The notes under the pieces are model-generated. The model did no database searches. It saw only the letters and a program-made list of their open reading frames with translations, and was not told the origin of the DNA. Shown here in pieces: positions 53,770 through 57,309 of a DNA stretch of 64,000 nt (positions within the stretch are counted from its first letter, which is position 1; every line of letters starts with the position of its first letter). The stretch spans positions 2,336,501-2,400,500 of the forward strand of contig NZ_BPIM01000001.1 in assembly GCF_026004115.1 (NCBI RefSeq), written 5' to 3'. The DNA is from Meiothermus sp. Its GTDB lineage: Bacteria; Deinococcota; Deinococci; Deinococcales; Thermaceae. The position numbers and the translations under genes were made by a program.

Positions 53770-55442
<1,673 letters not shown>

Positions 55443-55655
55443 CTACTTGCCCTCCTTATCCCTGAAAAAACCCAGGATGCCCCAGATGCCCGCAATTGCG
55501 GCCACCGCACACAGGGCAAACCCCACCACAAAAACCACCCAGCTGAGTACCGGGTTGGTTTGCAGGTTGCCCAGCCAAAGCCCCAGGGTGGCAATAGACA
55601 GCAGCACCGAGACCACCACCAGCACCACCCCTCGAATCAATTCCTTTGTAGACAA
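55443..55655 (-). CDS. small two-pass membrane protein, hypothetical
   Basis: A 70-residue protein with two hydrophobic segments (GVVLVVVSVLLSIATLGLWLG and VLSWVVFVVGFALCAVAAIAGIWGILGFF) and a charged tail FRDKEGK. It lies between leuC and leuD, with its stop codon next to the leuD ATG. I do not know the family. Its position suggests co-transcription; it could be an assembly or export factor, but nothing shows that. Confidence 0.7.
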   Translation of the reverse strand: MSTKELIRGVVLVVVSVLLSIATLGLWLGNLQTNPVLSWVVFVVGFALCAVAAIAGIWGILGFFRDKEGK

Positions 55656-55714: not shown

Positions 55715-57139
55715 CTACGCACCCACCAGCTCACTGACCCCAAACACTTCCCGCGCATCGCTTACCTGGCCGGTTACGGCGGCGGCCACCACCATCACCG
55801 GCGACATCAGCACGGTGCGTCCGGTGGCGCTGCCCTGTCGGCCCTTGAAGTTGCGGTTGGAGGAAGAGGCGCACAGCTCGTCTCCGACCAGCTTGTCGGG
55901 GTTCATGGCCAGGCACATGCTGCAGCCCGCACCGCGCCATTCAAACCCGGCCTCGCGGAAGATTTCAGCGATGCCCTCCTCTTCGCACTGCCTGGCTACC
56001 TGCTGGGAGCCCGGCACCGCAATGGCCCGCACCCCCGGGGCTACCTTGCGGCCCTTGAGGTACCTGGCAGCTTCGCGAAAGTCGGAGATGCGACCGTTGG
56101 TGCAGCTTCCCAGAAAGGCCACATCCACCTTCACCCCCTTGATGGGCTGGCCGGGCCGGAGCTTCATGTGCTTGAGGGCTTCTTCCAGACCGGCCCGTTC
56201 GGCCTCGGGGTAGAGGGCGGGGTCGGGGACGCGGTCGGTGATGGCGCAGCCCTGGCCGGGGTTGATGCCCCAGGTCACGGTGGGGGCAATGTCCTCGGCG
56301 CGGATGTTCACTATGTCGTCGTAGTGGGCGTCGGGGTCGGAGGCCAGGGCCTTCCAGCGCGCTACGGCCTGCTCCCATGCCTCGCCTTTGGGGGCATAGG
56401 GCCGGCCTTTCAGGTAGTCGAAGGTGGTCTGGTCGGGGTTGACGTAGCCGATGCGGGCTCCCCCCTCGATGCTCATGTTGCAGACGGTCATGCGCTCTTC
56501 CATACTGAAGTTGTCAAAGACGCTGCCGCCGTATTCATACGCATAGCCGATGCCCCCGTTCACCCCCAGCACCTTGATGATGTGCAGGATCACGTCCTTG
56601 GCGTAGACCCCGGGGCGCAGCTTGCCGTTCACGTTAATCCGCCGCACCTTGAGTTTGCTCACCGCCATGGTCTGGGTGGCCAGCACATCGCGTACCTGGG
56701 TGGTGCCAATGCCAAAGGCGATGGCCCCGAAGGCCCCGTGGGTAGAGGTGTGGGAGTCGCCACAGGCGATGGTCATGCCGGGCTGGGTGATGCCGTTTTC
56801 CGGGCCAATCACGTGTACAATGCCCTGCTGGCCTGAAGTCACGTCAAAAAAGGTAATGCCGAACTCCTGCACGTTCTTGCGGAGCTGGCGGATCATCTCG
56901 TCGGCCTGGGGGTCGGCGAAGGGTTCTGCAAGCGAGTGCGTGGGCACGATGTGGTCTACCGTGGCGAAGGTGCGCTCGGGGAAGCGCACCTTGAGGCCGA
57001 GGTCGCGCAGCATCCCGAAAGCCTGGGGGCTGGTGACCTCGTGGATCAGGTGGGTGTCGATGAAGAGCTGCGTTTGCCCGTTGGGCAGCGTGCGCACCGC
57101 GTGGCTCTCCCAGACTTTTTGGTACAGACTTTTTCCCAT
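55715..57139 (-). CDS. leuC: 3-isopropylmalate dehydratase large subunit
   Basis: A 474-residue aconitase-type enzyme. The IPMD motif [33 protein letters not shown] is near residue 115. Cluster cysteines are likely in FLGSCTNGR and [12 protein letters not shown]. First structural gene of the leucine operon, with AAAGGAGG 14 bp upstream; an attenuator precedes it. Confidence 0.97.
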
Positions 57140-57175
57140 GATTGTTTTATGCCTCCTTTGTCCGAAACCTTGAGC

Positions 57176-57204
57176 AAAAACCCCAGAGACGTTTTGCTCT
57201 GGGG
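57176..57204 (-). terminator. leucine operon attenuator terminator
   Basis: CCCCAGAG (57181-57188) and CTCTGGGG (57197-57204) form an 8-bp stem around 8 bases. Followed on the minus strand by TTTTTG. It stands between the leader peptide and leuC. The loop-side AGCAAA can instead pair with TTTGCT just after the leader stop, a possible antiterminator. Confidence 0.8.
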
Positions 57205-57221
57205 CCTATGACGGCAGCAAA

Positions 57222-57272
57222 CTAGACCCCTCGAGCGGGGCGTAGTAGGCGCTGCGCAACGGGGTCCGTCAT
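57222..57272 (-). CDS. leuL: leucine operon leader peptide
   Basis: A 16-residue peptide MTDPVAQRLLRPARGV with two adjacent Leu codons, CTA CTA (57243-57248), before its stop. CTA is an uncommon Leu codon in this GC-rich genome. The ATG lies seven bases after TATACT, so the message has no leader and the ribosome starts at the 5' end. A stalled ribosome on CTA-CTA under leucine shortage would favour readthrough into leuC. The arrangement, not homology, supports the call. Confidence 0.7.
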   Translation of the reverse strand: MTDPVAQRLLRPARGV

Positions 57273-57279
57273 TGCCAGG

Positions 57280-57309
57280 AGTATAAAGTTTGGTATACCA
57301 AAACGTCAA
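57280..57309 (-). promoter_or_regulatory. promoter of the leucine operon with embedded operator
   Basis: On the minus strand TTGACG (57304-57309), 18 bp, TATACT (57280-57285). The spacer contains the perfect palindrome TTTGGTATACCAAA (57289-57302), a likely repressor or activator site. Confidence 0.7.

Follow-up and report, generated by a model that had tools for sequence, protein, structure and literature searches.

What does the short open reading frame upstream of leuC do in this Meiothermus genome, and could a peptide translated from the very 5' end of an mRNA control the leucine operon? The window, i.e. the whole stretch of 64,000 nt that was analysed, carries the operon on its minus strand, to which all window coordinates below refer. 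The leader is followed by a terminator, leuC (3-isopropylmalate dehydratase large subunit, 55715..57139, start at 57139), a small hydrophobic ORF of 70 amino acids in the leuC-leuD interval (55443..55655), which is presumably co-transcribed, leuD (54837..55442) and leuB (53770..54822), the last two named from reading of their translations. leuC is the first gene that would be regulated, and the nearest named LeuC is that of M. granaticius (94 % identical).

The promoter consists of a -35 element TTGACG (57304..57309), of which TTGAC is shared by the Meiothermus-type sequences and most of those from Thermus, and a conserved -10 element TATACT (57280..57285) 18 nt from it. The leader ORF MTDPVAQRLLRPARGV, 16 codons plus stop (57222..57272), starts with an ATG at 57272-57270, seven bases (CCTGGCA) past the -10 element, and ends with UAG at 57224-57222. 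No Shine-Dalgarno sequence precedes this ATG, whereas leuC has a full one, AAAGGAGG, at 57152..57159. This combination, a start codon 5-10 nt downstream of a -10 element and lacking a Shine-Dalgarno sequence, is what is expected of a leaderless gene. Leaderless genes account on average for 39 % in Deinococcus-Thermus and are recognised by a TANNNT hexamer some 12 nt ahead of their start (PMC3160421); the same signature is described in PMC12340547, the main text of which does not mention attenuation. The first-pass annotation had placed the peptide at the 5' end of the mRNA. The order TATACT, seven bases, ATG on which it relied stands, while the transcription start itself is predicted from this promoter geometry; we infer that it lies at the ATG or within a few bases of it, and that the leader is leaderless or nearly so.

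The adjacent CTA CTA leucine codons of the 16-codon peptide, already pointed out in that annotation, were confirmed as codons 9 and 10 (57243..57248, read from 57248 to 57243). In the large ORFs of the window CTA makes up 0.65 % of all codons and 5.4 % of the leucine codons. The range first assigned to the locus, 57222-57309, covers the promoter and the ORF, but the functional unit reaches further, to 57176, where the T run of the terminator ends.

Between the peptide and leuC lies an intrinsic terminator (57176..57204), as had been claimed, with the stem CCCCAGAG (57204-57197) and CTCTGGGG (57188-57181) followed by TTTTT (57180-57176). It is present in both the minimum free energy and the centroid fold, and the z-score of the leader was -2.99; a simple terminator scan of the region gave no match, although folding and comparison show the terminator. 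In the RNA this stem (segments 3:4, CCCCAGAG/CUCUGGGG) has two rivals. Segment 1, CCCC (57237..57240), follows directly after the leucine codons and pairs with GGGG (57230-57227) of segment 2 to form a protector hairpin. Segment 2, GGGGTCT (57224..57230), overlaps the end of the leader ORF and can pair either with segment 1 or, as the antiterminator GGGGUCU/AGGCCCC, with segment 3 (AGGCCCC, 57201..57207), part of which lies in the terminator's 5' arm. A leader ORF with leucine codons, a terminator before the first structural gene, and an antiterminator set against the terminator and a protector hairpin are thus all found.

The position of a ribosome decides between these helices when only the RNA free of the ribosome is folded, at 37 and 55 °C, for an assumed distance of about 13 nt between the first base of the A site and the leading edge. 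The antiterminator had a probability of 1.0 when the A site held CTA9 or CTA10 and RNA polymerase stood at or just past the end of segment 3; without a ribosome its probability was 0 and hairpin 1:2 held; and with the ribosome at the stop codon the terminator (1.0) was the sole helix formed. With the assumed footprint, a ribosome stalled at the leucine codons hides segment 1 and leaves segment 2 free, while one at the stop codon hides segment 2. In the complete RNA at equilibrium the terminator wins over the antiterminator, also when a ribosome is stalled. Because equilibrium always favours the terminator, the switch would have to be kinetic and decided during transcription, as is usual for attenuators.

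The following course of events would agree with these results. Transcription would start on the leader ATG or a few bases from it, and a ribosome would initiate there without a Shine-Dalgarno sequence. With charged tRNA-Leu plentiful, the ribosome would pass CTA CTA, reach UAG and cover segment 2, so that the 3:4 terminator would halt RNA polymerase ahead of leuC. Under leucine shortage the ribosome would stall with CTA in the A site, covering segment 1; segment 2, just beyond its leading edge, would then pair with segment 3 while segment 4 has yet to be transcribed, pre-empting the terminator and allowing leuC and the genes after it to be transcribed. In RNA that is not translated, 1:2 and 3:4 would form and transcription would terminate. 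In our judgement it is very likely that the leu leader is a leucine-responsive, ribosome-mediated transcription attenuator, with a peptide read from an mRNA that is leaderless or nearly so.

Conservation of the leucine codons in relatives, proposed as a check in the first-pass annotation, was examined and agrees with this reading. LeuC was found in 50/50 family genomes searched, and all of them, as well as two Thermaceae MAG contigs, have a short ORF that ends before a terminator upstream of leuC (52 leaders). Leader ATGs were selected by a TANNNT hexamer 5-10 nt before them; such a hexamer was present in 51/52, the exception (L111) having no clear -10 element. The peptides are wholly different between lineages (LLRPARGV, ILGPRAPWA, FLLDLGRAGPA, LTPAPRG) and form several unrelated sets, such as MPTWVKQPLLSPARGV, MRGISCILGPRAPWA and the Thermus form MRRGFLLDLGRAGPA. 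CTA occurs in 51/52 leaders, in several genomes as a single codon only, and accounts for 78 of the 101 leucine codons (77 %) in the 44 distinct leaders, compared to 1.5 % of those in 30 leuC genes. In 33 of the 44 distinct leaders, 21 nt separate the last CTA from the stop codon; L097 and L099 have an earlier stop, yet the distance from CTA to segment 2 is still about 14 nt. The one leader lacking CTA, L102 (G019), has CTG in its place and, ahead of the terminator, some 76 nt of inserted sequence, possibly a sign of attenuator decay.

The helices are conserved as well. For the 12 closest leaders, pairing was complete in the antiterminator (100 % of cells, with six of its seven pairs counted) and reached 95 % in the terminator. 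No covariation was seen within this group, where the helices are almost invariant, and for this reason within-group covariation counts are uninformative. Between lineages both antiterminator strands change. When each segment 2 of 10 lineage representatives was paired with every segment 3, with representatives and arms chosen by hand, cognate pairs had a mean of -19.7 kcal/mol and swapped pairs -14.7 kcal/mol (permutation p = 5e-5). In per-sequence shuffles of the antiterminator, p was at most 0.05 in 48 % of leaders, with a median of 0.058; the Thermus leaders were only borderline since shuffling their GC-rich strands still leaves good pairing.

Beyond the family, leuC leaders with a close -10 box and CTA codons were found in most of the genomes inspected from two further families of the order (f4 and f5), exemplified by MTYARTLTLIPPPRG in f4 and the longer MRIRRRLRSINWHMTNLLVINGAVVA in f5, and no leuC leader was seen in three genomes of another (f3). 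Many f5 (Trueperaceae-type) leuC leaders (L231, L233, L240-L251, L262, L263 and L267) carry an Arg-rich RRRL motif with hydrophobic residues and Q/A before the leucine codons, which may reflect conservation at the level of either the peptide or the RNA.

It is conceivable, but unlikely, that the attenuator is the same and the mRNA is not leaderless, with transcription starting further upstream to give a 5' UTR or with another start being used. Distances of 9-10 nt between the -10 element and the ATG in some relatives do imply a UTR of a few bases. However, the promoter scan detected a single site at the leu leader (10/12 matches, 0.1 expected), a Shine-Dalgarno sequence is absent before the leader ATG and present in full at leuC, and almost every family genome has retained the spacing of 7-8 nt although the sequence itself has turned over completely.

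It is still less probable that the promoter is mainly under the control of a repressor and that the leader adds basal termination only. This reading draws on a perfect palindrome, TTTGGTATACCAAA (57288..57301), a putative operator between the -35 and -10 elements. It is the sole perfect copy in its own genome, and an exact copy occurs in 17/18 genus genomes. TTGAC followed by GGTATACC within 12 nt was found in 18/18 genus genomes, compared to three control matches over all 18, and the TTGAC-N-GGTATACC loci that were read (L281-L310) are mostly leader-bearing promoters of leuC, ilvB or hcs. Against it, the palindrome is absent from Thermus leu promoters, which retain the Leu-codon attenuator, and neither CTA codons nor complementarity between segments 2 and 3 would be under selection if the terminator were only basal. 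The two layers can also coexist. The GGTATACC palindrome of the Meiothermus leu, ilv and lysine promoters is probably a repressor site for branched-chain and lysine synthesis, and the repressor likely acts together with attenuation at the leu promoter. One candidate for the cognate repressor, a GntR-type gene (L165) near one GGTATACC copy, was rejected because it precedes an apparent tripartite tricarboxylate transporter gene, and no regulator is claimed for GGTATACC.

Very improbable is a T-box or metabolite riboswitch governing the terminator, with the ORF incidental. The leader is indeed structured and has a terminator, but it is too short for a T-box, and the ORF, its frame and its rare leucine codons are conserved while the RNA sequence varies. 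At gathering thresholds Rfam gave no match in the leader region, neither to the leucine leader families nor to the T-box, and only tRNAs across the window. A chance ORF before an ordinary terminator is hardly credible, since, common as 16-codon ORFs are, and with p ~6e-4 for adjacent CTA CTA alone in such an ORF, the presence of the leader in 50/50 family genomes and, beyond them, in two families of the same order makes a chance origin untenable.

The leucine attenuator is not the only candidate of its kind in this genome. Sibling leaders were examined one gene at a time and by eye, less thoroughly than the leu leader; gene names other than ilvB come from similarity to E. coli proteins, and asd was named by reading the translation start. 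The ilvB leader MFSTGSLILVVMGLVITGPMGDLV (L170, upstream of 1501; G000:C1 ~2847330-2847518) has the codons LILVV..LVI and the arrangement TTGACA..TAAACT, 10 nt, ORF and terminator, and this leaderless-type attenuator for branched-chain amino acids is kept in Meiothermus-type genomes (L201-L222). Upstream of trpE, the leader MVRTAQVKGWWWP (L190, ~600-760, reverse complement) has its ATG nine bases downstream of a -10-like CAGACT, contains three tandem Trp codons (WWW) and is followed by a GC-rich stretch and a T run that we read as a terminator. The homocitrate synthase (hcs) leader MIVSAKKPSAGGLV (L197, L295) carries tandem AAA AAA (KK), may alternatively be GTG-started and one codon longer, and is likewise followed by a GC-rich stretch and a T run; leaders like it occur in L283, L291, L296 and L307. 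The asd leader MVWYTTTTT (L169 ~1470-1600), seven bases past TATTGT, has five consecutive Thr codons, then hairpins and a T run, making it a candidate threonine attenuator. No comparable leader was seen before leuA, hisG, pheA or hom in the same genome. Taken together, we lean towards the view that leaderless attenuators are a general and old mode of control for the amino-acid operons of the order (leu, ilv, trp, hcs, asd), and that in Meiothermus a shared repressor on the GGTATACC spacer operator adds a second layer of control to leu, ilv and hcs.

If this is true, ribosomes would load onto a bare 5' AUG quickly enough to set the fate of RNA polymerase within about 100 nt. These leaders provide a clean natural system for studying the speed of ribosome loading on leaderless RNA and its coupling to RNA polymerase. 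They also add unannotated leader peptides, and an Rfam covariance model could be built from them. A survey confined to four Rfam attenuator families suggested that amino-acid attenuators are gamma-proteobacterial in origin with few transfers (PMC3766115); here a leucine attenuator of unrelated sequence, leaderless in form and with siblings for other amino acids, is retained throughout Thermaceae and in two further families. In the literature covered, outside which most subscription papers fall, we found no paper on a leu attenuator of Thermus or Meiothermus.

The first-pass annotation is supported on attenuation by the matching and conserved antiterminator; leaderless attenuation as such has precedents. 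The classical leuL leader of the E. coli and Salmonella leuABCD operon resembles the leu leader in its Leu-codon peptide, its protector, antiterminator and terminator segments and its terminator before the leu genes. It differs in being preceded by a Shine-Dalgarno sequence on a leadered transcript, in having 28 codons instead of the 16 of the Meiothermus leader, with its ATG near the predicted 5' end and no Shine-Dalgarno sequence, and in being annotated upstream of leuA, whereas the first gene in Meiothermus is leuC. Closer in descent, the T. thermophilus lysine cluster (hcs) is reportedly under leader-peptide attenuation; its leader, from the same family, is said to be similarly short, with tandem regulatory codons and a terminator before a biosynthesis gene, but to have Lys-Lys codons and different helices, and it is this hcs type that MIVSAKKPSAGGLV of the present genome matches. 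In C. glutamicum, attenuation of ilvBNC involves a leader peptide that, according to Morbach et al. 2000 as cited in PMC10272879, is formed without a ribosome binding site, like that of leu; the codons are for branched-chain amino acids, however, the host is an actinobacterium and the RNA (ilvB-II motif) is different. The polycysteine sORFs of mycobacteria, in the summary of Canestrari et al. 2020 given in PMC9031893, are likewise leaderless short ORFs that act as attenuators, their codons sensing an amino acid and controlling a downstream operon, but the amino acid is cysteine and that review describes control of downstream translation and not the terminator/antiterminator switch of Meiothermus. 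The kind is thus known already from Corynebacterium and Mycobacterium and, reportedly, from the lysine genes of Thermus, and it is the breadth and the predicted leaderless design, not the mechanism, that are remarkable here.
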